Positions 9,706 through 25,703 of a stretch of DNA of 64,000 nt are shown here, piece by piece. Below the pieces are notes generated by a model that ran no database searches, was not told where the DNA came from, and was given only the letters and a program-made list of their open reading frames with translations. The position numbers were made by a program, and so were the translations under genes. The stretch lies in assembly GCA_001603035.1 (NCBI GenBank), contig LVAS01000063.1, positions 124,001-188,000 on the forward strand, in the 5' to 3' direction. The DNA comes from Clostridiales bacterium Firm_13 (GTDB lineage: Bacteria > Bacillota > Clostridia > Saccharofermentanales > Saccharofermentanaceae). The stretch's first letter is position 1. Each line of letters starts with the position of its first letter.

Positions 9706-10773
9706 TTGATCGGAAAGGAGAAGAGTACGGCGAGAAGAATTGCTGCCCAACCCACTTTGATCCCTATACCCAAAGCGGGAGAGAGAAAGAAATCCCGCCT
9801 TATTTTCTTATGCCTGTCGCTCGTGATTTCGCTTTCTCTGACGGGTTGCGCGTCTTTGAACCCAAATGGAGCCGACGGAACCAATCCTATTTATTCATTC
9901 CAACAAGGTGTGCAAGAGCTGATTCTCGATTGCTCCATTGCGACACCGGCAGCGGCGACGGAATCCGAAGAGCCGTTACAAGAAATCGGGAGTGAACAGG
10001 ATTTATTCTTCTTTTTGCAAGATGCCCTTTATTCATTTAAAACAGAGGCATCCTTTCGGATCGAAAGTTATGACCTTTTTCTTCAGTATTGGAAAGAACT
10101 CGAATCGGAGGGCGCATTACATTCCGCGTTTCAAACCGGCGATGTCAGCGTCATTTATGACTCCCTTACCCCTTGCACGGTCAACCTGTCTTTTGCCTAT
10201 GATCCGGCGGGATTGATAATGTCTGCGCTCCGGACCGAACAAACGCCATCCTTTGCCGACTCCGAGACGAAGAAGCTCTACGGTGCGTGTCAGTCGATTT
10301 TATCGCAGATCATTACAAACGATATGACTGATCTCGAAAAAGAAATTGTGATTCATGATTATATCGTAATTCACACCGAATACCAAGAAACAGGGGATAT
10401 GACCGAATTGTCCCAAGCTTCAAGCGTTTTACTGAACGGAAAAGGGCAATGTCAAGGCTATGCGGAAGCGGTGTCACTCCTCTTAGCGATGGAAGGGATT
10501 GAATCGCGCGTCATATCGGGAGTCGCCTATAACAGTGATAATATCGGAACGGGACACGCTTGGAACCAGGTCCTTCTTGACGGAACCTGGTATCATGTCG
10601 ACGCAACTTGGGATGACCCGGTTCCGGACACAGGGAATTATGCATCTCGCGACTATCTCAATCGATCGGATGCTTTTTTTGCGCTGGACCATTCTTGGTC
10701 CGGACTCTTTCCTTCTTGTCCGACGGATATGGCGACACAGTCCTCCGATCAGCCTCAGATATTCGAACCCTGA
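9706..10773 (+). CDS. Transglutaminase-like lipoprotein
   Basis: A 355-residue secreted protein. A basic N-terminus is followed by a hydrophobic stretch and lipobox SLTGC near residue 48. The C-terminal 150 residues carry a transglutaminase/protease-like fold with a complete Cys-His-Asp triad: Cys in GKGQCQGYAEA, His in GTGHAWNQV, Asp in YHVDATWDDP. Families of this type act as extracellular peptidases or crosslinkers; the substrate is unknown. The start is TTG at 9706 with AAAGGA at 9695-9700; there is no in-frame ATG ahead of the signal peptide. It follows the deacetylase-like gene by 48 bases and is probably in the same operon. Confidence 0.8.
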   Translation: MIGKEKSTARRIAAQPTLIPIPKAGERKKSRLIFLCLSLVISLSLTGCASLNPNGADGTNPIYSFQQGVQELILDCSIATPAAATESEEPLQEIGSEQDLFFFLQDALYSFKTEASFRIESYDLFLQYWKELESEGALHSAFQTGDVSVIYDSLTPCTVNLSFAYDPAGLIMSALRTEQTPSFADSETKKLYGACQSILSQIITNDMTDLEKEIVIHDYIVIHTEYQETGDMTELSQASSVLLNGKGQCQGYAEAVSLLLAMEGIESRVISGVAYNSDNIGTGHAWNQVLLDGTWYHVDATWDDPVPDTGNYASRDYLNRSDAFFALDHSWSGLFPSCPTDMATQSSDQPQIFEP

Positions 10774-10855
10774 ACTCTTCATATTTCATGGACGAAAATC
10801 AAAAGAAATATTATAATTAAACAACTGTAGATTTACGTATTCAGGGAGGGATAGT

Positions 10856-11281
10856 ATGTCAAAGAAGTCGGAGACTCCATCAGGCTTGCCTATTCTTTGG
10901 AAAGACCGCAAACGTCATCTTGGATTGCCGCTCTCATTTACCGTATACAGTATGGATGAGAATCGATTCTATCTTAAGTCCGGGTTTTTTAATACGAGTT
11001 TCGACGAATTACTTTTGTACCGAATTCTTGATATTAAGTTGACACGTTCCTTAGGACAGAAGATATTTGGCGTCGGTACGATTACCCTTATGACTGCAGA
11101 CCAGAGTAACCCGAACCTTCTTATTCGCAACATTAAGCATTCCGAAGCGACAAGGCGACTGATCAGCGACAAAGTCGAAGAACAAAGAGATAAGAAACGC
11201 ATCATGGGCAAGGAGATGTTCGGCGCTGCCGGCATGGAGATGCTTGACGACAGCGGAATGAATGTCGGAGTTCACAACTAA
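10856..11281 (+). CDS. PH-like (bPH2/DUF304-type) domain protein
   Basis: A 141-residue soluble protein. Residues 20-105 form alternating strands typical of bacterial PH domains (FYLKSGFFNTSFDELLLYRILDI, then GTITLMTADQSNPNLLIRNI), ending in a helix with VEEQRDKKR. The C-terminus is short and Met/Gly-rich. No TM helix is visible, unlike many bPH2 proteins. GGGAGGG precedes the ATG, and TATAAT at 10812-10817 is a likely -10 box. Function unknown. Confidence 0.7.
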   Translation: MSKKSETPSGLPILWKDRKRHLGLPLSFTVYSMDENRFYLKSGFFNTSFDELLLYRILDIKLTRSLGQKIFGVGTITLMTADQSNPNLLIRNIKHSEATRRLISDKVEEQRDKKRIMGKEMFGAAGMEMLDDSGMNVGVHN

Positions 11282-11315
11282 TTGGTTGACATCGGTTTCG
11301 GAAACATAAGGAGGT

Positions 11316-12146
11316 TTGGCACAAGACATTGCGCTTGCCTTCGGAGGAAATTATCGAGCAGTGGAGACGAGACTTGACCGTTACGACGGAGCACGCGAGA
11401 AGAAGATTGCGCAGCTTAAATCAATAATCGCCGAATCGAATGACATCGTTTTTCTGGGCGGCGCCGGCGTATCAACCGAGAGCGGAATTCCTGATTTCCG
11501 TAGCGGTCAGGGTATCTATAACCAAGACAGCGGGCTTTCCTATCGGCCGGTTGATATTATCAGTCATACCTTCTTTTTAGATCATACACAGGAGTTCTTT
11601 GATTTCTATCGCCGCAAGTTATGTTATCCGGATGCCAAACCGAATGATGCGCATAAGGCACTTTGCCGACTTGAGAAGCAAGGTAAGTTGAAGGCGATCA
11701 TTACGCAGAATATTGATAATCTTCATCAGATGGCCGGAAGCAAGGTTACCATTGAATTGCACGGATCTGTACATCGCAATTATTGTATGTCTTGCAAGGC
11801 GCCTTATCCCTTATCCTTCATTCTTCAAAGTGAAGGCGTTCCTCACTGTCCGCTATGCGGCGGTATCGTTCGGCCGGATGTCGTTCTATATGAAGAGCAT
11901 CTTGACCATAAGAATATCGACGCGGCGATTGCCGCGATCGAGAAGGCGGATCTTCTTATAATCGGAGGAACGTCACTTACCGTTTACCCCGCGGCGACAT
12001 TTGCACAATTCTTGCCGCATGATCGTGTCGTGATTATCAATAAGAGTACAACTTATTTGGATCTTCAGGCGATGCTCACGATACATGACAATATCGGCGA
12101 GATTTTGAACGAAGTTGTGCCCAAGCGAATCAGAAAGAAACAGTAG
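11316..12146 (+). CDS. SIR2-family NAD-dependent protein deacylase
   Basis: A sirtuin that removes acyl groups from lysines using NAD+. The Rossmann signature GGAGVSTESGIPDFRS, the TQNIDNLH motif, the catalytic His in ELHGSVHR, and the zinc-site Cys pairs CMSCK and CPLCG are all present, followed by GGTSLTVYPAA. The start is uncertain. The TTG at 11316 lies only one base after AAGGAGG (11308-11314), which is unusually close, whereas the GTG at 11361 would give the shorter N-terminus normal for the family but has a distant ribosome site. The gene's 3' end overlaps the convergent ABC transporter by 17 bases. Confidence 0.9.
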   Translation: MAQDIALAFGGNYRAVETRLDRYDGAREKKIAQLKSIIAESNDIVFLGGAGVSTESGIPDFRSGQGIYNQDSGLSYRPVDIISHTFFLDHTQEFFDFYRRKLCYPDAKPNDAHKALCRLEKQGKLKAIITQNIDNLHQMAGSKVTIELHGSVHRNYCMSCKAPYPLSFILQSEGVPHCPLCGGIVRPDVVLYEEHLDHKNIDAAIAAIEKADLLIIGGTSLTVYPAATFAQFLPHDRVVIINKSTTYLDLQAMLTIHDNIGEILNEVVPKRIRKKQ

Positions 12147-13932
12147 TTCCCTCTGCCGGGTCATCGGCAAATTGAATTTGATAGAGTTCCGAATAAGGCC
12201 CGCTTCTTTGCAAAAGTTCTTTGTGGGACCCTTCTTCCTCGATTCCATTTTCACTGAGATAAACAATCTTATCTGCGCTGCGAATCGTGGATAATCGATG
12301 CGCGATAACAACGCTCGTACGCCCGGTGGACAATAATTCGAGAGCATGTTGTATCTCGTGCTCGGTCTGAGTATCTAGAGCACTTGTCGCTTCGTCAAGA
12401 ATCAGAATCGGCGGGTTTTTGAGGAAGACGCGTGCGATCGCGACACGTTGTTTCTGCCCTCCGGAAAGGAGTAATCCTCGCTCTCCCACATAAGTATCAT
12501 ATTGATCGGGAAGGGCGCGTACAAAGGTATCCAACTGTGCCTTCTTCGCCGCCTCGATGACTTCTTCGTCTGTTGCGGACAGATCTCCGTATCGGATATT
12601 TTCCATAATTGTAGTCGGGAAGAGAAAGACATCTTGTTGCACGATGCCGATATTCCTGCGAAGGGAATGGATTTCAATGTCGCGAATATCCTTGCCGTCG
12701 ATACATATTTCGCCTTCGTTTACCTCATAGAAACGTGGGATGAGATGACAGAGTGTCGTCTTTCCTGATCCGGACGGCCCGACGACCGCAACCGTTTTTC
12801 CCGCGGGGATAATGAGGTTAATATCAGAAAGGATTTTGTCGGATGAATCCTTCTGATTATAGGAGAACGAGACGTGGCGAAACGTAATATCGCCGTGAAC
12901 CGAATCAAGCGTTACCGCATTGGGGCGATTCAGTATATCCGGCTCATAACGCATTAGATCGACAAACCGCTTGAAGCCGGCCATTCCGGACTGAAATAAC
13001 TCAGTGAAGTTCGTGAGTTTACGGATCGGCGAAAGGAAAGCCGAAATGTAGAGAGTGAATGCAACCAGATCGATTACGGTCATTCGATCCTTCATAATTA
13101 AATACCCGCCAAGTGCGATGGCAAGTAAATTCAGAAGGCTGATCATAAATTCCATTCCGGAGAAAAAGGTCGACATAACATAATAGAATCGGCCTCGAGC
13201 ATTTCGATAGTTCTTTGTCCCTCGAAAAAAGCGATTTGCCTCATGATCCTCATTCGCAAAAGCTTTCGAGACACGAACCCCCGCAATACTTGATTCAAGG
13301 TCCGAATTGATACTCGCGGTGGTCTCTTTGAGTTTCATTGCGGCATGCGACATTTTCTTTCGAAGCGTAAGCGTGAAAAGGATGAGAAGAGGAAGAAATA
13401 TCGCCATGGCGATTGTAAGTTGCGCATTGATAAAAAGAAGAGCCGCAAAAGACCCGACCAAAGTGACAACCGAGATAAAAATGTCTTCGGGGCCGTGATG
13501 AGACAACTCGGTAATATCGAAAAGATCAGATAGAATCCGACTCATCAGGCTCCCGGTTCGGCTGCTGTCATAGAACGAGAATGACTGTTTTTGGAGATGG
13601 AGAAATAAATCGCGCCGCATTTGCATCTCGATATTTGCGCCCATCAGGTGACCCCAATAAGATACGACAAATTGCATTCCTGCGCGAAGAACAAATGCCA
13701 GAAGTAAAGCGCCCACGACAAAAAAGAACGTCCGATAATCTTTGTCCGGAAGATATGTTTGGAGAGCTTGCCGAGAGATCATCGGAAAGGCGAGATCGAT
13801 TCCGGCAATCAGAAAAGCACATATCATGTCGATCAAAAATAGACCAATGTTGGGGCGATAGTAGGAGAGGAAGAGTGAAAACACTTTCTTCTTTTTGAAA
13901 TCTTCTTCGGTGACTGTCATTTTTGCATTCAT
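12130..13932 (-). CDS. ABC exporter, fused permease and ATPase (MsbA/LmrA type)
   Basis: A 600-residue half-transporter that should work as a homodimer or heterodimer. Six TM helices occupy about residues 20-320. The ATPase has Walker A GPSGSGKTT, the signature LLSGGQKQR, Walker B ILILDEATSALD and a switch His in VVIAHRLST. The substrate cannot be deduced; drugs, lipids or peptides are typical. It stands alone on the minus strand, divergent from the MutS-like gene and convergent with the sirtuin gene. Confidence 0.93.
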   Translation of the reverse strand: MNAKMTVTEEDFKKKKVFSLFLSYYRPNIGLFLIDMICAFLIAGIDLAFPMISRQALQTYLPDKDYRTFFFVVGALLLAFVLRAGMQFVVSYWGHLMGANIEMQMRRDLFLHLQKQSFSFYDSSRTGSLMSRILSDLFDITELSHHGPEDIFISVVTLVGSFAALLFINAQLTIAMAIFLPLLILFTLTLRKKMSHAAMKLKETTASINSDLESSIAGVRVSKAFANEDHEANRFFRGTKNYRNARGRFYYVMSTFFSGMEFMISLLNLLAIALGGYLIMKDRMTVIDLVAFTLYISAFLSPIRKLTNFTELFQSGMAGFKRFVDLMRYEPDILNRPNAVTLDSVHGDITFRHVSFSYNQKDSSDKILSDINLIIPAGKTVAVVGPSGSGKTTLCHLIPRFYEVNEGEICIDGKDIRDIEIHSLRRNIGIVQQDVFLFPTTIMENIRYGDLSATDEEVIEAAKKAQLDTFVRALPDQYDTYVGERGLLLSGGQKQRVAIARVFLKNPPILILDEATSALDTQTEHEIQHALELLSTGRTSVVIAHRLSTIRSADKIVYLSENGIEEEGSHKELLQRSGPYSELYQIQFADDPAEGTTVSF

Positions 13933-14003
13933 TTTATTACCTCATACAAACGAAACTACATTTTACCGGAAATCCTCCGTTTATGCCAGAACTGTCGAAA
14001 TAA

Positions 14004-14022
14004 ACTATGATAAAATCATAGT
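14004..14022. promoter_or_regulatory. Perfect 8-3-8 palindrome before the MutS-like gene
   Basis: ACTATGAT, three A bases, then ATCATAGT. It lies 25 bases upstream of the ATG at 14047 in the divergent intergenic region and covers the likely -10 box (TAAAAT). It could be a repressor operator or an RNA hairpin. Confidence 0.4.
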
Positions 14023-14046
14023 AATTTCAACCGGGAGAGCGTCGCT

Positions 14047-15894
14047 ATGCCAGAGGATAAAAGGAAAGAAAGAGACCAGCTCTTTGATACCAAAGAAGAG
14101 CAAATGCAGAACCAAATTCTTCACGAGGAGAAGGCGTCCGGACGCTATTCTACGCTTCGCTCCGTTTGCTTTCTTTGTGCGGTCGCAGCGTTTTTTGCGC
14201 TTCGCTATTTTGGAAATTTGGCGGGAGCCATTATTTTGTCCGCGGTATTTCTGCTGCTATTCGTTTTTTTTGTCGTTCGACATCGTTTTGTTCTTAAGAG
14301 AATTCAAATTCTTCAGAATCGACTCTTGGTCCTTTCCGAGTATAGAGCACGCACACAAAACGACTTCACGTTGCTCCAAGATACCGGTTCGGACTTTATT
14401 TCCGTCGATCATGATTTTTCATCTGATCTTGATCTTTTCGGCGCCCGTTCTCTTTTTAACTTATTGTCAACGGCAAAAACCTGGTACGGAAGGCGCATTT
14501 TTGCGGAGTACCTGTTATCCGGGAGTCAAATTACCGACGTCCGTTCCTGTTTGCGCCGTCAGGAAGCCGTAAAAGAGATTTCGGGAAATATAGATTACCT
14601 TTTGGATCTGCAAGCCGCGGGGAAGCGATCCCGACGTGCGGCGGAAGACCCGTCCAAGCTCTTGTCCTATATTCGTTACCGCGACGATGCGAAAAGCGAA
14701 ATAGGAGCACTTTATACTGCCTTCTCCGTTCTGTCTTCCGCCGGCTTTCTTCTCTCGATTGTAGCGGGATTTTTTCTTTCCATTATTCCGGCATATGTTC
14801 CCGGTATTTTTCTTATTACGCAGCTTCTTCTCATGGCCGGTAAGTATGCTGCCTTCAAACCCATTTTCTCTTCTGTGTCTCTCTATAGCGCGCAACTGCG
14901 AGCATATGAGGATATGTTTCGGATCGAGGAAGGAATGTCCTATTCCGCCTCGCTTCTTCGCGAAAACCAGAAGAATTTGAAGCATCAAAATGGAGAACAA
15001 ATTGTACCGGCTTCTGCCTCGATTCGTTCTCTTCACAGAATTTCCGTTGCCGTTCAAAGCCGAAGCCAACCGATTCTCTTTTTTCTTCTCAATCTTTTCT
15101 TGCCTTATGATGTCTTCTGCGTAAGATCATTAGTTCGATGGAAGAAAAGCTATGGCGCGGTGCTCGAGAGCGCTTTGCAAGCATTAGGAACTTCTGAGGC
15201 TCTTATGAGTCTTGCCACAATGTCCGTGCTGTATCCGGAGTGTAATTTTCCGGAGTTCGTCGAGGACCCTCACGGTGTTTGCTTTGAAGCGCACGGTATC
15301 GGACACCCTCTTATCCCCGCAGATCGCAGAATTGCGAACGACTTCGCAATCCGATCCGGAGTTGCGCTTATTACCGGTTCTAATATGTCCGGCAAGACAA
15401 CACTATTGCGTACCGTCGGAATTAACGCCGTTCTTGCTTATGCGGGCTCCGTGTGTTGCGCGGCGGATTTGCAATTAACGCCGATGAACATTCTGACCTC
15501 CATGCGGATTGCGGACAATCTCGGAGAAGGGCTGTCGACTTTCTATGCGGAGTTGATCCGGATCGGTCGCATGGTCGAAAGGGCGAAAGAAGGAGAGCCG
15601 TGTCTCTTTCTGATCGACGAAATATTCCGCGGAACCAATTCAAGAGACAGGACGGACGGTGCCAAAATTGTTCTCCAAAACCTTTCCAAGGATTACATTA
15701 TCGGACTTATGTCCACGCATGATTACGAGTTGTGCTCGCTCGAAGATATTGATGCCTTTCGTGTGCGTAATTATCATTTTTCAGAGAATTATGACGCCGA
15801 TGGAATCCATTTTGATTACCGCCTTAAGCCGGGAATTTCGAAAACGACAAACGCCAGATATCTCATGCGCCTGATTGGGATAGATTATGCCTGA
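14047..15894 (+). CDS. Membrane-anchored MutS-family ATPase
   Basis: A 615-residue MutS-like protein. Two adjacent TM helices (about residues 40-60 and 63-85) precede a MutS core (helical lever region about 110-420) and a C-terminal ATPase with Walker A GSNMSGKTT, Walker B CLFLIDEIFRGTN and a late STHDYEL motif. It lacks the MutS mismatch-binding domain with its Phe-x-Glu motif and lacks an Smr nuclease domain, so canonical mismatch repair is unlikely. Relatives of this membrane subtype are common in Firmicutes but poorly understood. GGGAGAGC precedes the ATG. Confidence 0.85.
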   Translation: MPEDKRKERDQLFDTKEEQMQNQILHEEKASGRYSTLRSVCFLCAVAAFFALRYFGNLAGAIILSAVFLLLFVFFVVRHRFVLKRIQILQNRLLVLSEYRARTQNDFTLLQDTGSDFISVDHDFSSDLDLFGARSLFNLLSTAKTWYGRRIFAEYLLSGSQITDVRSCLRRQEAVKEISGNIDYLLDLQAAGKRSRRAAEDPSKLLSYIRYRDDAKSEIGALYTAFSVLSSAGFLLSIVAGFFLSIIPAYVPGIFLITQLLLMAGKYAAFKPIFSSVSLYSAQLRAYEDMFRIEEGMSYSASLLRENQKNLKHQNGEQIVPASASIRSLHRISVAVQSRSQPILFFLLNLFLPYDVFCVRSLVRWKKSYGAVLESALQALGTSEALMSLATMSVLYPECNFPEFVEDPHGVCFEAHGIGHPLIPADRRIANDFAIRSGVALITGSNMSGKTTLLRTVGINAVLAYAGSVCCAADLQLTPMNILTSMRIADNLGEGLSTFYAELIRIGRMVERAKEGEPCLFLIDEIFRGTNSRDRTDGAKIVLQNLSKDYIIGLMSTHDYELCSLEDIDAFRVRNYHFSENYDADGIHFDYRLKPGISKTTNARYLMRLIGIDYA

Positions 15895-16059
15895 CACGCA
15901 ACGTCTTCGTGACGGAAGCGATGATAAATCATGCAAGAATCGCTTGAATCTGCTGGGAATGTGGTCTAAAATGAAATGTATAAATGCAGGAGTTGCATAA
16001 ATCTTGCACTGCAATCGCGGTGCTTGCAGAAATTACCTCGATACAATCGGGAGGCGAAT

Positions 16060-17322
16060 ATGATTTCTTTTACGCAAACCACGAATTTCTTTGGAAACAC
16101 CAATCCAATGGAGTTGGCGAACCGTTATGGTACTCCTCTCTATGTCTATAACGAGAATATTCTTCGCCGCCAGATGAGAAATGTCGCTAATTTGATCCCG
16201 ATACCTAATTTTACGGCGAACTATTCCATAAAGACGAATTCCAATCTGTCGATCTTGCGATTAGCGATGGAAGAGGGGTTATCTGCCGATGCCATGTCTC
16301 CGGGAGAAATTTATGTGCTCCTGAAAGCGGGCTTTCCCAAAGAGCGGATCTTTTATGTATCCAACAATGTTTCTGCTGAGGAATTACAGTATGCGATCGA
16401 TCAAGGGATTATGACCAGTCTCGACAGCCTATCGCAACTCGATCTATATGGACAATTGAATCCGGGCGGACGTTGTGCCGTGCGTTTAAATCCCGGTGTC
16501 GGCGCGGGTCATCATGAAAAGGTGATCACAGGAGGCAAGAAGACAAAGTTTGCGATCGCAGAATCAGATGTTCCCGAAATTGCCCAGATTGCCGCACGTC
16601 ATAATCTGAAAATAGTCGGTGTCAATCAGCATATCGGATCGCTCTTTATGGACGGAACGCCGTTCATTACTGCGGTTGAACACTTTCTTCAACTTGCTTT
16701 ACGTTTTCCTGATCTCGAGTTCGCCGACTTTGGCGGAGGATTTGGCATTCCCTATCACAAACTTTCGGGTGAGAAAGAATTTGACCTTGCGAGTTTTGGT
16801 AAAGATATTGAGAAAGCCGTAGCCGATTTTACGTCGAAATATGGCCGCTCTATTGTTTTCAAATGCGAACCCGGGCGATATGTCGCCGCGGAAGGTGGCG
16901 TCCTTCTTGGCCGAGTCCATGCGCTTAAGCAGAACAGTGGCGTCTCCTATGCCGGTACCGATATCGGCATGAATGTCCTTGTCAGACCTTCGATGTATGA
17001 TTCCTGGCATGATATTGAGGTCTATCGCGATGGTGCTCCTGTCATTGCGGAGGAAGGAAATATGCATGCCGTAACCGTTGTCGGGAATATATGTGAGAGT
17101 GGTGACATTTTGGCAAAAGATCGAGAATTGCCAACGATCCAAGAGAACGATGTTCTATGTGTTTTGGATGCGGGTGCTTACGGATATTCGATGTCGTCAA
17201 ATTATAACAATCGTCTGCGTCCCGCCGAGGTATTGATCGGGATTGACGGGGAGCCCAGACTGATTCGCCGAAGGGATCGACTTGAAGATCTGGTTGCCGG
17301 ATTTACAGAACTAGAATCTTAA
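16060..17322 (+). CDS. lysA: Diaminopimelate decarboxylase
   Basis: A PLP enzyme (420 residues) that decarboxylates meso-diaminopimelate to lysine. The PLP lysine is K58 in YSIKTNSN. HIGS, the glycine loop FADFGGGFGIPYHK, the EPGR phosphate-binding motif, the substrate motif CESGD and the C-terminal DAGAYGYSMSSNYN are all present. The frame is open from 15976, but CGGGAGG directly before the ATG at 16060 and the family length favour this start. The 165-base upstream gap shows no T-box or lysine-riboswitch motif that I can recognise. Confidence 0.92.
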   Translation: MISFTQTTNFFGNTNPMELANRYGTPLYVYNENILRRQMRNVANLIPIPNFTANYSIKTNSNLSILRLAMEEGLSADAMSPGEIYVLLKAGFPKERIFYVSNNVSAEELQYAIDQGIMTSLDSLSQLDLYGQLNPGGRCAVRLNPGVGAGHHEKVITGGKKTKFAIAESDVPEIAQIAARHNLKIVGVNQHIGSLFMDGTPFITAVEHFLQLALRFPDLEFADFGGGFGIPYHKLSGEKEFDLASFGKDIEKAVADFTSKYGRSIVFKCEPGRYVAAEGGVLLGRVHALKQNSGVSYAGTDIGMNVLVRPSMYDSWHDIEVYRDGAPVIAEEGNMHAVTVVGNICESGDILAKDRELPTIQENDVLCVLDAGAYGYSMSSNYNNRLRPAEVLIGIDGEPRLIRRRDRLEDLVAGFTELES

Positions 17323-17372: not shown

Positions 17373-17401
17373 TTGTCAAAATGAATTTAGTATTGTAATA
17401 T
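17373..17401 (+). promoter_or_regulatory. Promoter of the kinase/vWA/PP2C operon
   Basis: TTGTCA (17373-17378) and TAATAT (17396-17401) are spaced by 17 bases in an AT-rich gap. ATGCGCC (17366-17372), just upstream, is the reverse complement of GGCGCAT (17433-17439) next to the start codon; the first copy lies outside the transcript. Confidence 0.6.
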
Positions 17402-17441: not shown

Positions 17442-19292
17442 ATGACATCCGAATGGCGTGATTCTTTGCAATCTATCCGCTATATTCTTCTCGATTATCC
17501 TGCTGTATTCGAGGCGGGGAAATCGGAAGATTTTGTGCGCTTTTTAGATGCAGTCGAAGCTTTGCCGATCGACATTATTGTTTGCCAGTCCTTTGATCTT
17601 TACGATCAATGTGTCGGTCGTGTCATTCGCTCTTCCGGACAATACGGAACGCATTCCGCCGAACTGTTGCGATCTTTTGCCGAGAGCGGGAGAATGCATG
17701 TATCCGATCAGATTTCGGTTTTTAATTATATCGAACGCGGGAATTCGGATCCTGGTTTTTGCCTTGTCACAGGGAGTAAATCATCTGTATTGAATAAGAT
17801 CGGATTATCGGTTCCGTCCGTCCGATATCCGTTACTTATTTTCTCTGCCGATTCAGTTTCTCAGTACGACGACGTCTCTCTTTATGTTGAACAATATTCG
17901 GCCAGACGAGCTAATCCAATCGCATCGTCGATGGATTATCTTGACGTTGCGATTTATGTCAATGTCGGCGATACGGTTTTTACAGACAAAGGGGACAAGA
18001 TCCAATTGACGGAGAAGATAAATACGGGAGCGGAAGGTCTGGTATTCCGCACCAGCCGTGCGGATCTGGTTGCCAAAATCTATCATCGCGGCGTAATGAC
18101 ACCGCTTCGCTGGCAGAAACTAAGGCATATGACAAAGATGAATTTGGATGCCGACGGCATCTGCTGGCCTGTCGCTCTACTATATAACGCCAATCATGAA
18201 CCGGTCGGCTATGTTATGCCGCGTGCGGAAGGGTACACACTGGGAAGTGTTTTTGACGGACAGGACGCGATTCTTGACCGATTTCCGGATTGGGATCGAG
18301 CGAGCGTCGTAAAAGCGACGGTTCGGGTTCTTGAAAAGATTGTTTTCCTTCATCTATGCGGGATTCTGATCGGCGATATCCAACTGAAGAACATTATGAT
18401 TTCGGATCCGGATCACGTCTACCTCATTGATATGGACAGTGTTCAAATCGAGGACTTACCCTGTCCGGTAGGGACGGAAGAGTTTACGCCTCCCGAATTG
18501 TGGGACAGATCTTTCCAGTCCTTCTTACGAACTCCGCTCGACGAAGATTATTCATGCGGGATTCTGTCGTTTGTGATGATTTTCTGCGGTCAACATCCTT
18601 ATAATCAACGACAAGGCCATGAGACACTGCGCGAAGAGATTCAGGCAAAGGCATTTCCGTATGACTTGCGGAATATTGACAATTCCTCGATCCCTCTGGG
18701 CGGGTACGAACAGATCTGGCTTCATCTCACTTCGGAGATGCGTGATAAATTATTTCTTGCATTTGCTAAGGGCGATCGATATGAGACGATCGAATGGTAC
18801 TCTTATCTTCGATCCTATTTGAACGTCTTGAACAAAGGCGCGCTGCCCGATTCGGAATCGTATCGACTGTTTCCGAACCAGATTCGACATAAGCAACAAG
18901 TTACCGCAGAATATGGGAAACGCTCATTTCGCGATGCGATTATCCATAATCCGAGTGATTCGACCCAAGAAGAGCAAGAGCGGCGCGAAGAGAATCAGAA
19001 AGTATATTATAACGGAAGAAGAATTGGTGTTGCGTTTGTGAATCAGGATCGTTTATCCGGTTTTGAAAGAACGCAAAACAATGTCGGAGATGATGTACTT
19101 GTCGAACGAGATGCGAAAAACAATTCTCGCGTCGAAAAGCGAGAACCTTTCAAGGCGAAGACAGATTCACATACGAATCATTTTCGACAAAGAAAACAGA
19201 AAAAGATTCGTCCGTTGCCGATCCTTCTTACCGTCCTTGCCATCCTATTACTTGCTACTTTGGTTATTCTATACACGATATACGTATTATAA
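17442..19292 (+). CDS. Tail-anchored YegI-like protein kinase with unknown N-terminal domain
   Basis: A 616-residue Ser/Thr kinase-like protein. Residues 1-160 are an unassigned alpha/beta domain (strands IDIIVCQ and FCLVTGS give a PIN-like or Rossmann-like look). The kinase domain spans about 185-460: glycine loop GAEGLVF at 196-202, lysine K212 in VAKIY, catalytic loop GDIQLKN with D312 and N317, and DMD at 330-332 in place of DFG. These variants match the YegI/TerY-associated kinases rather than PknB kinases. Residues 465-590 are charged and disordered, and one TM helix (about 591-613) sits at the extreme C-terminus, so the kinase faces the cytosol. It leads an operon with a vWA protein and a PP2C phosphatase. 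Confidence 0.82.
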   Translation: MTSEWRDSLQSIRYILLDYPAVFEAGKSEDFVRFLDAVEALPIDIIVCQSFDLYDQCVGRVIRSSGQYGTHSAELLRSFAESGRMHVSDQISVFNYIERGNSDPGFCLVTGSKSSVLNKIGLSVPSVRYPLLIFSADSVSQYDDVSLYVEQYSARRANPIASSMDYLDVAIYVNVGDTVFTDKGDKIQLTEKINTGAEGLVFRTSRADLVAKIYHRGVMTPLRWQKLRHMTKMNLDADGICWPVALLYNANHEPVGYVMPRAEGYTLGSVFDGQDAILDRFPDWDRASVVKATVRVLEKIVFLHLCGILIGDIQLKNIMISDPDHVYLIDMDSVQIEDLPCPVGTEEFTPPELWDRSFQSFLRTPLDEDYSCGILSFVMIFCGQHPYNQRQGHETLREEIQAKAFPYDLRNIDNSSIPLGGYEQIWLHLTSEMRDKLFLAFAKGDRYETIEWYSYLRSYLNVLNKGALPDSESYRLFPNQIRHKQQVTAEYGKRSFRDAIIHNPSDSTQEEQERREENQKVYYNGRRIGVAFVNQDRLSGFERTQNNVGDDVLVERDAKNNSRVEKREPFKAKTDSHTNHFRQRKQKKIRPLPILLTVLAILLLATLVILYTIYVL

Positions 19293-19315
19293 TTTAGGGA
19301 GGAGGGCCTGCTAGT

Positions 19316-20056
19316 ATGGATGGTAAGAAGCATGTGTTTAGCGAATCCGATTTTGGCAGAAGTACCAAGCGCAGATTGCCGATATGTTTCTGCTTAGATG
19401 TAAGCGGCTCAATGTCGGGGAGCCCTATTCAAGAATTGAATGAAGCGCTTCAGAGCTTTCTCGCTTCGATTCGTGAAAATGATGAGACAAGAGCGGCGGC
19501 GGATATCTGTGTTGTAACCTTTGGGGGCAGTGTTGATATTCTTCTTCCTTTTACCCGAATCTCGAAAGATCAGGTTATCCCTAAGCTTCTTGCGACGACA
19601 AGCCTCACTCCGCTCGGCGAAGGAATTCTCACTTCTCTCGAACTTCTTTCCGAACGAAAGGAAGGATATAAACATCTTGGAATAAAGTATTATCAACCGT
19701 GGCTTGTCGTGATTACTGACGGTGCTCCGCAGGGCGAGGAAGCGATGGAGAATATGGAGACGGCGATTAACGCCGCATGTGAGCTCGAGTCGCTGGGGCG
19801 TCTCGTTGTTTTCAATATCGGCGTCGGTCACAATGTTGACTTCTCCCTTTTGCAGCGATTGTCAGCCAAACGCGCGGAACCGATTCGAATTCAATCGACG
19901 CAGTTTACCAAACTGTTCGAATTCTTGGGATCAAGCAGCTCGTCGATTATTTCTGGAGGGATGCGTGACGAGGCGCTATATGACTTTTCTGTGAAACCGC
20001 AAGGCAAATCCATAGCGATGGACGATTTTTTCAAATATCTTGAGGATAAAGAATGA
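19316..20056 (+). CDS. TerY/YegL-like von Willebrand A domain protein
   Basis: A 246-residue cytosolic vWA protein. The metal-ion-dependent adhesion site is complete: DVSGS at 28-32, Thr98 in SLTPLGEG and Asp135 in VVITDGAP. The strand VVFNIGVGHNVD and the C-terminal helix region match TerY/YegL proteins, which partner with a kinase and a PP2C phosphatase and are thought to be scaffolds or phosphorylation targets. GGAGGAGGG precedes the ATG, 23 bases after the kinase stop. The stop overlaps the phosphatase start by four bases. Confidence 0.9.
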   Translation: MDGKKHVFSESDFGRSTKRRLPICFCLDVSGSMSGSPIQELNEALQSFLASIRENDETRAAADICVVTFGGSVDILLPFTRISKDQVIPKLLATTSLTPLGEGILTSLELLSERKEGYKHLGIKYYQPWLVVITDGAPQGEEAMENMETAINAACELESLGRLVVFNIGVGHNVDFSLLQRLSAKRAEPIRIQSTQFTKLFEFLGSSSSSIISGGMRDEALYDFSVKPQGKSIAMDDFFKYLEDKE

Positions 20057-21126
20057 TCATTCGGGATGAACCTGAAATCGAATATCTCTCTCTTGCAGGA
20101 AGGAAGCATCGCGATAAAGGACTTCCCAGTGAAGACGCGTGTTTGGCGATTACGAAGAATGGGGTTACTGTCCTTTGTCTAGCCGACGGTGCGGGCAGCA
20201 GCCAATACACCAATTCCGATAAAGGGGCAAGTTCCGCGGTTCGCACGGTTTGCGAATTGTTGGTCGAACACTTTGACGCCTTTTACGTTGATAACCATGA
20301 GGCGTTGATCCGAAGTGTTCTCATCGCGGCAATTCAATCCGACATGGTCATTCTTGCCAAAGAGGAAGGGCTTCCCGATATCGAGAGCTTTTCGGCAACG
20401 CTTATGTTTACTGCGGTAAAGGATAAGCGAGTCATTTACGGACATATCGGCGACGGCATCATCGTTCGAGTATCCGGGTCGGGTCTTTCTCCCGTTACAC
20501 TTCCGCAGAATGGTGAAGATATTTCGAGTACGATTTTTGTTACTTTACCGGATGCACAGAATTACCTTCGAGTCATACGCACAACGCTTGACGATACACA
20601 TGCGATCGTCATGTTAACAGACGGCATTTCCGACGTTGTATTTGACGGAACCAAGCTTCTCGCTCTTCCTGTTATCGCAAGGCTGGCAGATCTTTGTGAA
20701 TATCCGCATGAAGAAAGAGAACGATTATTAGCGCAAGCGATTCGTAAGTTTGTCATCGATGCGACGCCTCTTTCTGATGACGCTACGATAGGGATCCTCT
20801 GTTGGCCGAATACACCCAAACCTTCGCCGGATCTCCTTCCGGAAGACGGACCGATTGTCATCAGTGAGCGAGCCGACTCGATCCGAGAAGTTCAGAAAGC
20901 AATTCTTCCTCGCGTAACGCGAGCAAGAGAAATCCTTGCGACCGGACAAGGTGAAGAGGGTGCTCCCCACGAAGGGAATAAATTGCAGAATGATACGCCG
21001 CCGGTGCCGGAGAAGACTGTTGACCAAGCGGCATCCAATCGAAGCATGCGAATTGCGCTATATATCTCCTGCGGCGCGGGACTTATTCTATTGGCAATCA
21101 ATTTTTTCCTGTGGATGAAGAGGTAG
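20053..21126 (+). CDS. Tail-anchored PP2C-family protein phosphatase
   Basis: A 357-residue metal-dependent Ser/Thr phosphatase. The PP2C motifs are seen in order: SEDAC near residue 27, ADGAGS with D45, GHIGDG near 147, LTDGISD near 195, and DDATIG near 247. A disordered linker from about 260 leads to a single TM helix near 332-353, so it is tethered like the kinase two genes upstream. It should reverse that kinase's phosphorylations. It starts in an ATGA overlap with the vWA gene. Confidence 0.9.
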   Translation: MIIRDEPEIEYLSLAGRKHRDKGLPSEDACLAITKNGVTVLCLADGAGSSQYTNSDKGASSAVRTVCELLVEHFDAFYVDNHEALIRSVLIAAIQSDMVILAKEEGLPDIESFSATLMFTAVKDKRVIYGHIGDGIIVRVSGSGLSPVTLPQNGEDISSTIFVTLPDAQNYLRVIRTTLDDTHAIVMLTDGISDVVFDGTKLLALPVIARLADLCEYPHEERERLLAQAIRKFVIDATPLSDDATIGILCWPNTPKPSPDLLPEDGPIVISERADSIREVQKAILPRVTRAREILATGQGEEGAPHEGNKLQNDTPPVPEKTVDQAASNRSMRIALYISCGAGLILLAINFFLWMKR

Positions 21127-21130
21127 AGAG

Positions 21131-21538
21131 ATGGAAAAGAAGAAGCGATACGAATTTCAATCCAAAGTGAAAGTCCCCAATATGCAAGAAATATCGGCCG
21201 CCGCCGGTAACTTTGGAGAACCCGTCACAAAATCTTTGAACGAAAAGTACCCGCTTCTTCCGGAAGCGGTCAATCACGTGCCGGGCCGAAGCGGTAAAAA
21301 GCTCAAAGGTGAACTCTACACAATGAAGAACGAATTGGAAAAACTTGCCCAGGCGGTTATTGAGGATGAAGAACTGCATGCCGAGGATTTGCCTCGTGCG
21401 AGTTCTGACGATGAGAATACGCCAAATGAAAACGAGACGAAGGAATCTTCTGAAGAGATGTCCCGTGATCCGATAATTTCTTCTTCCGAAACGAATACAG
21501 CTGCCGACAAAAATACGGATTCCGGACGGAAAAAATAG
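21131..21538 (+). CDS. Small acidic protein of the kinase operon, unknown
   Basis: A 135-residue protein that I do not recognise. It begins four bases after the phosphatase stop. Residues 1-80 are basic-to-neutral with helical stretches (KGELYTMKNELEKLAQAVI). Residues 85-135 are a disordered Ser/Thr/Glu/Asp-rich tail that would suit phosphorylation. There is no TM helix or signal peptide. Its position as the last gene of a kinase-phosphatase operon makes substrate or adaptor the natural guess. Confidence 0.7.
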   Translation: MEKKKRYEFQSKVKVPNMQEISAAAGNFGEPVTKSLNEKYPLLPEAVNHVPGRSGKKLKGELYTMKNELEKLAQAVIEDEELHAEDLPRASSDDENTPNENETKESSEEMSRDPIISSSETNTAADKNTDSGRKK

Positions 21539-21562: not shown

Positions 21563-22960
21563 TTAACCTTGTCGTTTGGCGGCAAGTCCCAGTATTTTAC
21601 CGGCGATCGGAGCCGCTGTTTCGCCACCCGCTCCGCCTTCTTCGACAATGACAGCAACGGCATAGGGCGCCGAGTCATCCGTAATATAAGCCACGCATAA
21701 CGCGTTGTTCTTTTGTCCCTGTACCTGCACGGTGCCTGTCTTTGCGGCGACCGTATAACCAGAAACGGCGGCGCTCGTACCTGTTCCGTGCTCTGTAGTC
21801 CCGATCATCATCGTTTCTAATTGCGAACATAATTCGGGGGAAAGCGCGGTCAATTCATTCGAAACACTTCTCTGATTGTATACTTCCCCGGCCGGAGTCG
21901 TAAAATACTGAACAATATGCGGCTTGACCATCACGCCGCCGTTTGCAATACATCCGGCAATCATCGCCATATGAAGCGGAGAGGTATAAAGAACGCTGTC
22001 CGCTACGGGCTGGCCGATCGCGACCCAGGACAGGGTAGACACGTTGTCCGGAATTTGAATCGCACCGGGAGTCGCAGTCAATCGATCGACGGAAAATGTG
22101 CGTCCATATCCGAATGCTTTCGCCGTGTCGGTCAAAGCATCACGACCGGTCATAACGCCGACTTGTCCGAAAAAAACATTACATGACCTTGCGATCGCGT
22201 CGGACAGATTTACGGTTCCGTGGCCGTCTCCCGTTTCGCTTGCTCCGTAAGCGTCAACGGTTGATTGTCCGTCGCAATCGATCGTAAAATCAGGATTATA
22301 AGCGGGCGACTCCAAGTAAGCGCTTGCCGTGATTAATTTGAAAGTAGATCCTGGCGCATAAGAGCCGGAAAATGCGCGATTAAATAGAGCGGTATCCGGA
22401 ATATCCTGATAGCGGATTACCGAATCGGGACTCGTGCTCGGAGAACTCACCGAAGCCAGAATGTCGCCTGTCTGGTAATTGAGGACGACGATGGCTCCCT
22501 TTCGTCCGTCAAGTAAATGATAGGCAGACTTTGCGAGTTCGCCACTTTCGGTCAAGGTTATATCATCTCCGTAAAGGCCTTTTCCGAATAGATCCAAAGC
22601 GAATTGTCGGAATAGATTCCTGTCGTTTCCGAGAAGAATATTCTGATAATTCGATTCGATCGTATTCCCGATATTATGCGTATAATCGCCTACAACTTGA
22701 AGAACCGCTTCTGCGATATCGGGATCATCCGCATAAATTCTCTCGCCGTCCTTACTTTGCGCCAAAATAACTCCGTCTGCATCATAAATCGTTCCGGCAA
22801 GAGCATACCTTGTCTTTAGGGCTTGCTTATTCTCTCCGGCGGCGGCATTCAATTCATTTTTACTTCTGTATTGCTGGAAGGATAATCCGACTAAGAGTGC
22901 GATAGAGACAAGAAGGAAAAGGACCAGAACACCTTTTAGATTTCTAAGTAACATCTTCAT
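21563..22960 (-). CDS. Class B penicillin-binding protein (PbpA/FtsI-type transpeptidase)
   Basis: A 465-residue peptidoglycan transpeptidase with an N-terminal TM anchor (about 8-27) and an extracellular catalytic domain: SxxK as STFK at 205-208, SCN in ARSCNVFF, and KTG in AAKTGTVQ. The short N-terminal module is like mycobacterial PbpA and clostridial PbpA rather than full-length FtsI. It overlaps the upstream SEDS gene by an ATGA and should form a glycosyltransferase-transpeptidase pair with it. GGAGGAG precedes the start. Confidence 0.92.
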   Translation of the reverse strand: MKMLLRNLKGVLVLFLLVSIALLVGLSFQQYRSKNELNAAAGENKQALKTRYALAGTIYDADGVILAQSKDGERIYADDPDIAEAVLQVVGDYTHNIGNTIESNYQNILLGNDRNLFRQFALDLFGKGLYGDDITLTESGELAKSAYHLLDGRKGAIVVLNYQTGDILASVSSPSTSPDSVIRYQDIPDTALFNRAFSGSYAPGSTFKLITASAYLESPAYNPDFTIDCDGQSTVDAYGASETGDGHGTVNLSDAIARSCNVFFGQVGVMTGRDALTDTAKAFGYGRTFSVDRLTATPGAIQIPDNVSTLSWVAIGQPVADSVLYTSPLHMAMIAGCIANGGVMVKPHIVQYFTTPAGEVYNQRSVSNELTALSPELCSQLETMMIGTTEHGTGTSAAVSGYTVAAKTGTVQVQGQKNNALCVAYITDDSAPYAVAVIVEEGGAGGETAAPIAGKILGLAAKRQG

Positions 22961-24723
22961 AAAGTTTCTCCTCCGTCTTCCTTTCGGGCCGAAAGACCGA
23001 GTAGAATTCCAAACAAAACAAGAATTGTCAACACAGAACTCCCGCCCTGTGCGATTAAGGGGAGCGTAGCGCCGGTGAGCGGAAGAAGGCCGGTAACACC
23101 GGATATAACGATGACCGCCTCGATAAAGAGAAGGGTCCCGATCCCGAGCGTCAGTCCGGACGAATAACCATCATGCGAGAGAACCGCAATTTTGGCGGAT
23201 CTTAACCAGACAATAATAAAAAGAAGCACGATACAAAGTCCCGTAATAAGGCCCAACTCTTCACACAGAATGGAGAAGACCATGTCGGAATTGACCAGTG
23301 GTATGCCTCCGGGACTGCCGTTTCCGAGACCGCGGCCGAAAAGCCCACCTCGCCCCACGGCTTGAAGACCATAAACGATTTGCCGGTTGTTGTCGTTTAC
23401 CTCGGTCCAGAGCGTAGACCAACCGAGTATTCTTCGACGAACATGCGGAAAAATTGTAAAGGCAAGAGCGCCGACCGCAGAACCGGACAATAAAATAATG
23501 AGTGTTGTAAAATACTCCGACGTCATCACCACATAAACGATCAGCGTCGTCGGTAGGAGTATCATCGCCGATCCTAAATCGGGAAGAAGCATAATGAGAG
23601 CAAAGACAATAGCCGCCCAAATCGCGAAAATGAATTGGTCCTTCCTCGTAGTTCGATTCTTGAAAAAGCTTGCCAAAACGATGAGGTACGTAACCTTGGC
23701 AAATTCGGTCAATTGCACGGAAAATCCTGCGATAGTTACCCAAAGGGTTGCTCCGTTTGATTCGGCTCCGTGCCCCAAAATCAGTGTAACAAGAAGAAAC
23801 AGCGGAGTAAGGACAGCACAAACTTTGCCGAGATGCTCCAAGATGAATGTTCGCGCACAGAGGAAGATTATGAGAGGAAGGAGAATAAATCCGATAGAAA
23901 AGGAGATAAATTGCGTGGTAAGTCCTGAGAAAATCGATTTCTCTCCTGTCGCGCCGACAGCCGCAAGACGAATTTGAATGAGAAGGCCGATAAGTGACAG
24001 CATGGAAAGAATGAGAAAAATCGAACGATCCAATTTGGGAAAAATGAGCGGAAGTAGCCAGAAATAAAGATTGAAAAGAACAAAGAAAGCCCCGGCTCCA
24101 ATCAGAAGGAGGGAAATATCCTTTGTATTCTCGGATGGGATAAATAAGGTGAGGAGCGAGAATCCGATCAGATAAAAAAGGCAAAAGGAGAAGTAACCGC
24201 CCAATATCTTGGAGAAGGCTTTGGATTTAGGGTATTCAGGATCTTCCACATAATCTTCGTATGTCAAACTTGCTTCACCTGCTGAAGCCGCTTCGTCGAT
24301 AAACAGAAAAGAGTACGCGCCGATGCCGATTCTGTCCTGGTTCTGCAAAGGAACCGGATGAAGAATCTCCGTATTGTTGATATATACGGGGGAACGAGGT
24401 GTCAGCGCACGAATAAACCAGACCCCGTCAAAAAGGTATATGATCGCGTGTCTTCGACTGACAAGCCGGCTTTTCACGCGGATATCGCTTCCCGATGACG
24501 ATCCAATCGTTGTCGTATGGAACAAGGGCAGTGTCTGAATATTCCCTTCCGAGCGGATATCCGCAGAATCTGACATCAAAAAGAAACCCTTGGAAGGTGT
24601 AATGCTATACTTGAATGTAAATCGTAATTCGCGCGACGACAAAAGAAGGAATCGCCATACAAAAAATGCAAGCAAGAAGACGAGTGGGTATCGGAGGAGA
24701 TAAGAGAGTTGAAAGATATCCAT
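22957..24723 (-). CDS. FHA domain fused to SEDS peptidoglycan glycosyltransferase (FtsW/RodA)
   Basis: A 588-residue fusion. One TM helix (about 12-29) is followed by a cytosolic FHA domain (about 45-145): TTIGSSSGSDI, then SRLVSRRHA containing the phosphothreonine-binding Ser-Arg-x-His, and INN. The rest is a ten-helix SEDS protein with the family blocks LPDLGSAMI, YGLQAVGRGGLFGRGLGNG and DMVFSILCEELGL. SEDS proteins polymerise lipid II; the FHA domain should dock a Thr-phosphorylated partner. The frame extends to a TTG at 24771, but the ATG at 24723, two bases after the previous stop, is preferred through translational coupling. Confidence 0.9.
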   Translation of the reverse strand: MDIFQLSYLLRYPLVFLLAFFVWRFLLLSSRELRFTFKYSITPSKGFFLMSDSADIRSEGNIQTLPLFHTTTIGSSSGSDIRVKSRLVSRRHAIIYLFDGVWFIRALTPRSPVYINNTEILHPVPLQNQDRIGIGAYSFLFIDEAASAGEASLTYEDYVEDPEYPKSKAFSKILGGYFSFCLFYLIGFSLLTLFIPSENTKDISLLLIGAGAFFVLFNLYFWLLPLIFPKLDRSIFLILSMLSLIGLLIQIRLAAVGATGEKSIFSGLTTQFISFSIGFILLPLIIFLCARTFILEHLGKVCAVLTPLFLLVTLILGHGAESNGATLWVTIAGFSVQLTEFAKVTYLIVLASFFKNRTTRKDQFIFAIWAAIVFALIMLLPDLGSAMILLPTTLIVYVVMTSEYFTTLIILLSGSAVGALAFTIFPHVRRRILGWSTLWTEVNDNNRQIVYGLQAVGRGGLFGRGLGNGSPGGIPLVNSDMVFSILCEELGLITGLCIVLLFIIVWLRSAKIAVLSHDGYSSGLTLGIGTLLFIEAVIVISGVTGLLPLTGATLPLIAQGGSSVLTILVLFGILLGLSARKEDGGETL

Positions 24724-24725
24724 CT

Positions 24726-25703
24726 TTAGTACCGCAGACGGATTACCGTTACTGCCAAATAGAGGAAACAAATGCCGGCGTGAATCAAGGTCATCCGATA
24801 TGTGACTTGCGGATTAGACCAATGAAGTCGTTTGCGTAAATGATCGTGAAAAGGCGTTAGCGTATTCTTCAGAATACTGATTTTGAGGAAACGCTTCAGA
24901 GAAATCTTAACGATGCCGGCACCGCCGTTCAGTATGAACAGGAGACAAAGGAATAGATAGGAAACCGGCATGCGACTTTGCATGAAAGAAATGGCAAGAA
25001 ATACCCCGAGAGCTCTTGAACCGGCGTCGCCCATCAGTAAGCTGCTCGGATTCGTATTCTTCCAGAGATAGACGCAAAGAACGGAAAAAAGGAGAAGATA
25101 GGTGCCGGACCAACTATCCCCGCGATTCGTGATATAAGAGAGTATGGCAAGCGCGCCTACGGAGACGATGGTCATCGAAGAAGACAACCCGTCGACGCCG
25201 TCGGTGCAATTCGTGACGTTGATGGCGACCCAGACAAGCAGCGTGCCCAACAGAATATACAAAGGAAAAGGAATCAAAACGGCAAGATGCAGAATCGGGA
25301 AATAGATCGTTCGATCAAAAAACAGTGCAAAGGTTAAGGCGGCGCTAAAAGAAATCGCAAGATCGATGGCGCCCTTTAGATATTCATTCCAGGGCTTGGA
25401 GGCGGCGTCATCGAGAAAACCAAAGATCATAGCGGCTTCGATCAGAAAAATATAAATGGCATACGGTAAGGAAGGTGTTAAAAACAAATAGGATACGACG
25501 CAAAAAACGGTTATAAAAAGAAAGCCCGCGCCCGTCGGCTTCCCTTTGCTTGCGGAGCCTTCCACGGCATACGCGCGTCCGTGGTCAGTGGGTAACAGAA
25601 AGAGCAGAAAACGGAAGGCGACAATTGTCAAAAGGACGGCAAGAACCGCACCGATCAGAATATTACTGAGTGAGTCTCCTTCAAAAAAGAAACGCGTAAG
25701 CAA
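24726..25703 (-). CDS. MraY/WecA-family phosphosugar transferase
   Basis: A 325-residue polytopic enzyme that attaches a phospho-sugar to undecaprenyl phosphate. MraY-like features are PTGAGFLF, the catalytic Asp region FGFLDDA, NCTDGVDGL, LLMGDAGSRALG and a late TPFHDHLRK replacing the usual TPxHHH. It lies in an operon with SEDS and PBP genes, so it may supply lipid I for that pair, although a WecA-type role is possible. The TTG at 25703 has GGGAGG at the right distance; an upstream TTG at 25730 does not. Confidence 0.85.
   Translation of the reverse strand: MLTRFFFEGDSLSNILIGAVLAVLLTIVAFRFLLFLLPTDHGRAYAVEGSASKGKPTGAGFLFITVFCVVSYLFLTPSLPYAIYIFLIEAAMIFGFLDDAASKPWNEYLKGAIDLAISFSAALTFALFFDRTIYFPILHLAVLIPFPLYILLGTLLVWVAINVTNCTDGVDGLSSSMTIVSVGALAILSYITNRGDSWSGTYLLLFSVLCVYLWKNTNPSSLLMGDAGSRALGVFLAISFMQSRMPVSYLFLCLLFILNGGAGIVKISLKRFLKISILKNTLTPFHDHLRKRLHWSNPQVTYRMTLIHAGICFLYLAVTVIRLRY

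Follow-up and report, generated by a model that had tools for sequence, protein, structure and literature searches.

Kinases of the YegI/TerY-P type are widespread, though little is known about the signals and substrates involved. In the TerY-P triad, adjacent genes encode a kinase, a TerY-like vWA protein with a MIDAS, and a PP2C phosphatase; it has been proposed to be a metal-dependent switch (PMC11090510, citing Anantharaman 2012), and such modules are tied to restriction and phage defence (PMC11090510, PMC4978471). In Escherichia coli, autophosphorylation of YegI takes place at the membrane and is reversed by PphC (YegK) (PMC13232886, citing Rajagopalan and Dworkin). PrkC/Stk1 PASTA kinases with PrpC/Stp1 phosphatases form another kinase/PP2C pair controlling Ser/Thr phosphorylation. 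The gene set and order of the triad in the locus described below recur in PIN-kinase triads of Paenarthrobacter sp. AT5 (plasmid, RI444_RS23000-22990) and Lysinibacillus capsici (pFN9B, OCI51_RS26225-26215). Here, we report a kinase, vWA, PP2C, and fourth-gene operon (the quartet) in a 64,000-nt stretch of Clostridiales bacterium Firm_13 (contig LVAS01000063.1; the window), which is a core locus of one family of anaerobes from gut and sediment. On balance, we favour reading it as a TerY-P-type PIN-kinase triad that became a fixed core phospho-switch at the membrane and has a fourth protein specific to the lineage.

Operon layout and homology to known triads

An earlier note on this DNA described four tightly spaced genes comprising a YegI/TerY-P-like triad and a small acidic protein with a Ser/Thr/Glu tail, and that description holds. 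The four open reading frames lie on the forward strand at the coordinates it gave, overlapping or close, with spacings of 23 nt (kinase to vWA), −4 nt (vWA to PP2C, an ATGA overlap), and 4 nt (PP2C to fourth gene).

17373..17401, + strand: candidate sigma-A-like promoter TTGTCA-17-TAATAT, about 40 nt upstream of the kinase start (consensus scan, 9/12)
17442..19292, + strand: Ser/Thr kinase, YegI/TerY-P type, 616 aa (ORF, Pfam, YegI comparison, kinase tree)
17442..17951, + strand: kinase N-terminal domain, aa 1-170, PIN-like element order, D18 kept, later acidic motifs absent (predicted fold; alignment with outgroup PIN domains)
17964..18881, + strand: kinase domain, aa 175-480, with GAEG loop, VAK Lys212, GDIQLKN 311-317, IDMDS 329-333, and PCPVGTEEF (invariant columns; tree)
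19215..19286, + strand: predicted kinase C-terminal transmembrane (TM) helix, aa 592-615, in part of the family only (predicted structure; tail survey)
19316..20056, + strand: vWA protein with complete MIDAS, 246 aa (Pfam, MIDAS alignment, YegL comparison)
20053..21126, + strand: PP2C phosphatase, 357 aa (Pfam, PphC comparison)
21052..21114, + strand: PP2C C-terminal membrane anchor, about aa 334-354, universal in the family (hydrophobicity; tail survey)
21131..21538, + strand: fourth protein, 135 aa, no Pfam match, acidic Ser/Thr/Glu-rich C-terminal half (ORF, locus alignments)
21143..21232, + strand: conserved N-terminal segment of the fourth protein, aa 5-34, consensus K-K-Y-E..V..PD..EI..AASDFS (family alignment)

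Promoter-like matches in the region were not above the count in shuffled sequences in the consensus scan, so the promoter is a candidate only. Pfam scores were 34 bits for Pkinase (kinase), 51 bits for VWA (vWA protein), and 127 bits for PP2C_2 (phosphatase). The three enzymes are homologous to E. coli YegI (E = 2e-21), YegL (E = 7e-37, 37% identity), and PphC (E = 8e-11), respectively. YegI is membrane-bound, and with a kinase domain that begins at residue 7 it lacks an N-terminal domain, which agrees with the earlier reading of the window kinase as carrying an extra domain; the E. coli gene order differs, and the fourth gene has no counterpart there. Unlike in TerY-P modules, the window kinase does not end in a zinc ribbon or OB fold, and the operon has no ter or restriction/DNA-processing genes nearby and is core rather than accessory. 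PASTA repeats are not found in the window kinase; a separate PASTA kinase/PP2C locus lies on another contig (PASTA domains of the genome are on contigs C59 and C2), and the genome encodes two kinases that pass the Pfam cut-off (the quartet and PASTA kinases), two PP2C proteins, and two FHA proteins.

Lys212, catalytic Asp312, Asn317, and metal-binding Asp330 are invariant in the family alignment of the kinase; the alpha-C Glu is not conserved. At the DFG position the window kinase reads LIDMDSVQ. We dropped the DMD as a mark of novelty: YegI has DSD (IDSDS against IDMDS in the window) and the plasmid and Bacillota relatives mostly DTD, so the variant is ordinary among YegI/TerY-P kinases. A disordered linker (residues 484-590, pLDDT <50 in the predicted structure) leads to a predicted hydrophobic helix formed by the last 24 residues (592-615, pLDDT 83-96). 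From these conserved residues and the TM helix, the window kinase is predicted to be catalytically competent and membrane-located.

The earlier note also placed C-terminal anchors on both enzymes and expected them in close homologues, which proved right for the phosphatase and wrong for the kinase. PP2C catalytic motifs are conserved, and the hydrophobic end segment (starting at residue 334, Kyte-Doolittle mean 2.1) recurs as a C-terminal membrane helix in 21/21 aligned loci and in 75/78 of a second set; the exceptions are two proteins cut by the locus end (L105, L132) and one that ends early in frame (L097). Only 12/80 relatives have a kinase with a membrane helix at its end, and the kinase tail anchor was rejected as a defining trait. 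Of the other 68, which lack the helix, 58 have a short basic-aromatic end (KKxFxGLF), such as KKKFFGLF or KFKKGLF. No zinc-binding Pfam match was found in the kinase, and family kinase tails are either a TM helix or KKxFxGLF. The KKKFFGLF end in kinases without a membrane helix (e.g., L132-L158) may serve for docking or for peripheral membrane attachment. Tail exchange also occurs outside the family, since the kinase of the Paenarthrobacter plasmid has an amphipathic-looking end (KKGLWARIADWFWN) and that of a Bacillota relative (L181) a hydrophobic tail.

In the vWA protein, the MIDAS residues D28-x-S30-x-S32, T98, and D135 are invariant across relatives, and the motif is complete, as had been claimed. 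Two unannotated faecal phage records (MT835511.1 and MT836238.1) encode vWA relatives with 25-30% identity, and judging by these sequences phages may carry related modules.

Distribution and chromosomal context in the family

The kinase is present in 93/98 genomes of the family (Saccharofermentans/Mageeibacillus relatives) and in 62/62 of those of high quality (completeness at least 90%, contamination at most 5%), as a single copy apart from fragments. Genomes without it are lower-quality drafts, one of which (G047) still has the fourth gene. It was not found in other families of the order, except for one marginal match (E = 8e-4), and outside the family the kinase profile matched only 5/399 genomes of a phylum sample (G000 excluded). 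Relatives among named records include Saccharofermentans, Mageeibacillus, Ruminococcaceae bacterium KHP2, YRB3002, YAD3003, and numerous MAGs from rumen, horse, and other environments. Loci from these records and from the 98-genome search stem mostly from shared genomes, and the two sets of counts are not independent.

Kinase, vWA, PP2C, and fourth gene follow one another in this order in 21/21 aligned loci (about 13-19 kb each; the vWA of L068 was hidden in this count by an overlapping ORF), and a profile scan of the second set (n = 80) placed the fourth gene directly 3' of PP2C in 72/74 loci with room. Because the same order recurs in the 21 annotated relatives and in these 72 loci, the arrangement is not a matter of chance, and the gene-neighbourhood search suggested in the earlier note confirmed the fourth gene as a conserved operon member alongside the triad. 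One exception (L116) has a frameshifted copy of the fourth gene; in the other (L132), other genes, including a two-component system, stand between vWA and PP2C, and PP2C lies about 6 kb further on, at the locus edge. The roughly 6 kb of extra genes in L132 (about 10400-16480) is either an insertion or an assembly join.

The chromosomal context is essentially one across the family. In the 21 loci, a MutS-like gene generally lies upstream, usually with a decarboxylase gene, and a glycosyltransferase-4 (GT4) gene on the opposite strand often lies downstream; the window neighbours are MutS-like, decarboxylase, PBP, FHA-FtsW, and GT4 genes. No empty site was found in three genomes of a sister family, searched via the upstream MutS-like gene, where synteny is too eroded, and the acquisition event itself is therefore not seen. 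Fixation in the entire family leads us to expect a housekeeping role.

This distribution bears on a reading of the quartet as simply another TerY-P/YegI stress or anti-phage module, its fixed position the result of drift and its fourth gene an accessory with no defined role. All three enzymes are clearly homologous to YegI/YegL/PphC and to TerY-P-like triads, and TerY-P modules are connected with restriction and phage defence (PMC11090510, PMC4978471). However, presence in every high-quality family genome at essentially one chromosomal position, set against the sporadic occurrence of the outsiders, argues the other way, as do the window, in which no nuclease, restriction, or ter gene was found next to the operon, and the PADLOC scan, which gave no system match and only weak kinase matches. 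We regard this reading as improbable.

The immediate neighbours suggest a further alternative, in which the switch in the window genus acts mainly on cell-wall synthesis and the adjoining FHA-FtsW/RodA and PBP proteins read phospho-threonines.

21563-24771, − strand: PBP transpeptidase gene and FHA-domain FtsW/RodA fusion, convergent to the operon (window neighbours)

One of only two FHA proteins in this genome of two kinases and two phosphatases is FtsW/RodA-like (22957-24771), and the same PBP/FHA-FtsW neighbours occur in a second genome of the genus. The quartet is family-wide, whereas the FHA-FtsW gene is absent from four other genera tested, in which the search gave one distant FtsW-only match (G024); moreover, the usual partner would be the PASTA kinase, which has its own PP2C. 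This alternative therefore appears highly improbable even for the window genus, and a family-wide link of the quartet to FHA-FtsW was rejected, the FHA-FtsW gene being genus-restricted.

The kinase N-terminal domain and PIN-kinases outside the family

In the five outsider genomes and in G372, the neighbours of the kinase are vWA and PP2C genes. Where the N-terminus is complete, the outsider kinase starts with a PIN domain in which the D...E...D motifs are mostly kept (that of L170 matches Pfam PIN_4 at the cut-off). The Paenarthrobacter plasmid, which is conjugative, encodes a PIN domain-containing protein, VWA, and PP2C adjoining transposition genes, and the Lysinibacillus plasmid has the same PIN-kinase, vWA, and PP2C architecture. 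The window kinase and vWA are 36% and 42% identical to Bacillota members of the PIN-kinase triads. Like the window operon, these triads have an extra domain N-terminal to the kinase; unlike the family, they keep the PIN motifs intact, mostly end in a zinc-rich stretch, occur sporadically and partly on plasmids, and have no counterpart of the window's fourth gene. In the maximum-likelihood kinase-domain tree, the family forms one clade (100/100) grouped with the PIN-kinases, and YegI and another kinase fall outside this group (99/97); the branch placing the family inside the PIN-kinases is weakly supported (82/69), and its stem is long.

Two side observations concern the genes around the outsider triads. 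On the Lysinibacillus plasmid the triad is followed by a different fourth gene (L193:10526-11182), whose product, judged by eye, probably has a TM segment and resembles a J-domain at its C-terminus. Outgroup PIN-kinases are preceded by an XRE-type HTH protein that carries a second PIN-like domain, apparently a degenerate one.

L170:4529-5515; L181:6480-7340; L194, frame starting near 5388: XRE-type HTH and PIN-like protein, 5' of the PIN-kinase

The N-terminal domain of the family kinases (about 170 aa) was predicted with a pLDDT of 84 (AlphaFold, 67 sequences) and the element order b-a-a-b-a-a-b-a-b-a-b, which is the canonical order of PIN domains. It is not a second kinase domain, as the earlier note had supposed: none appears in the predicted fold or in Pfam. 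D18, at the end of strand 1, is 97% conserved and is the only residue of the PIN acidic active site (D...E...D.D) kept in the family, the EEL and TQDxD positions not being acidic. A joint alignment with outgroup PIN domains spans all strands. Comparison with these PIN domains in hhalign (E of 0.27 and 0.039) and its permutation control (14/60 local, 5/60 global) were not significant. Foldseek gave no match to the domain with E <0.001, listing PIN domains at target TM 0.5-0.57 interspersed with methyltransferases that scored a lower TM; the whole kinase matched kinases only, and a Pfam scan of the 67 N-terminal domains gave scattered chance matches only.

We consider it likely that the domain is PIN-like, a PIN relic without nuclease activity; homology is probable on grounds of topology, position, and phylogeny, the sequence tests being not significant. 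The lack of a significant sequence or fold match to PIN would also suit an unrelated Rossmann-like sensor fused independently to a YegI-type kinase. That origin seems unlikely to us, however, given that the domain shares its position, element order, and first Asp with the PIN domain of the nearest kinases and that the joint alignment is continuous through all strands. If the pseudo-PIN reading is true, the locus clearly exemplifies how a nuclease-kinase module of the conflict type can turn into a core regulator.

The fourth protein and the proposed phospho-switch

The fourth protein, which has no hydrophobic segment, gave no match in Pfam, NCBIfam, or PADLOC and only weak matches in PHROGs (E of 0.018 and 0.33). 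Past its conserved first 30 or so residues, it is charged, mostly non-hydrophobic, and variable in length; the window copy is one of the shortest, most relatives having 200-350 aa. Many longer copies have an acidic-aromatic end, such as DEETxDDFSEFL, or contain FKETxLxDDY...DTSESVDDDF. Because these phosphorylatable C-terminal motifs are clade-specific, differing between genera, and are missing from the window copy, the N-terminal segment rather than the tail must be the part that matters everywhere. Its invariant linkage to the triad and its conserved N-terminus lead us to infer that the fourth protein is a lineage-specific docking adaptor or substrate. For kinases of this type, an obligate fourth partner is an obvious first substrate candidate.

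In the phospho-switch reading favoured here, the ancestor would have been a TerY-P/YegI-type kinase, vWA, and PP2C triad with a PIN nuclease domain at the N-terminus of the kinase. In the family ancestor, this triad would have been fixed in the chromosome as a core locus. The acidic nuclease motifs of the PIN domain would have disappeared, the kinase would have exchanged its zinc-ribbon tail for either a membrane helix or a short tail of basic and aromatic residues, and the fourth gene would have been gained. More tentatively, a mobile nuclease-kinase triad of the defence type might have been captured just once, its PIN domain inactivated to a sensor or restraint, and, with a new docking partner, have become indispensable to core signalling of the family.

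The biochemical roles suggested for the four proteins follow from homology and conservation. With its ATP-binding and catalytic residues intact, the kinase would phosphorylate itself and its partners, and ligand sensing or restraint of the kinase is the most likely task of the pseudo-PIN domain. MIDAS conservation and the role proposed for TerY-P suggest that the vWA protein would then bridge kinase and phosphatase via a divalent metal. The membrane-anchored PP2C would undo the phosphorylation, by analogy with the action of PphC on YegI in E. coli. The fourth protein would bind the complex via its conserved N-terminal segment, its flexible acidic Ser/Thr-containing tail serving as a dedicated substrate or adaptor.

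The vWA protein ends in DDFFK(F/Y)(L/M)EE (window 20017-20053), and many fourth proteins end in DDFSEFL; the short motif that they share possibly marks a common docking site.
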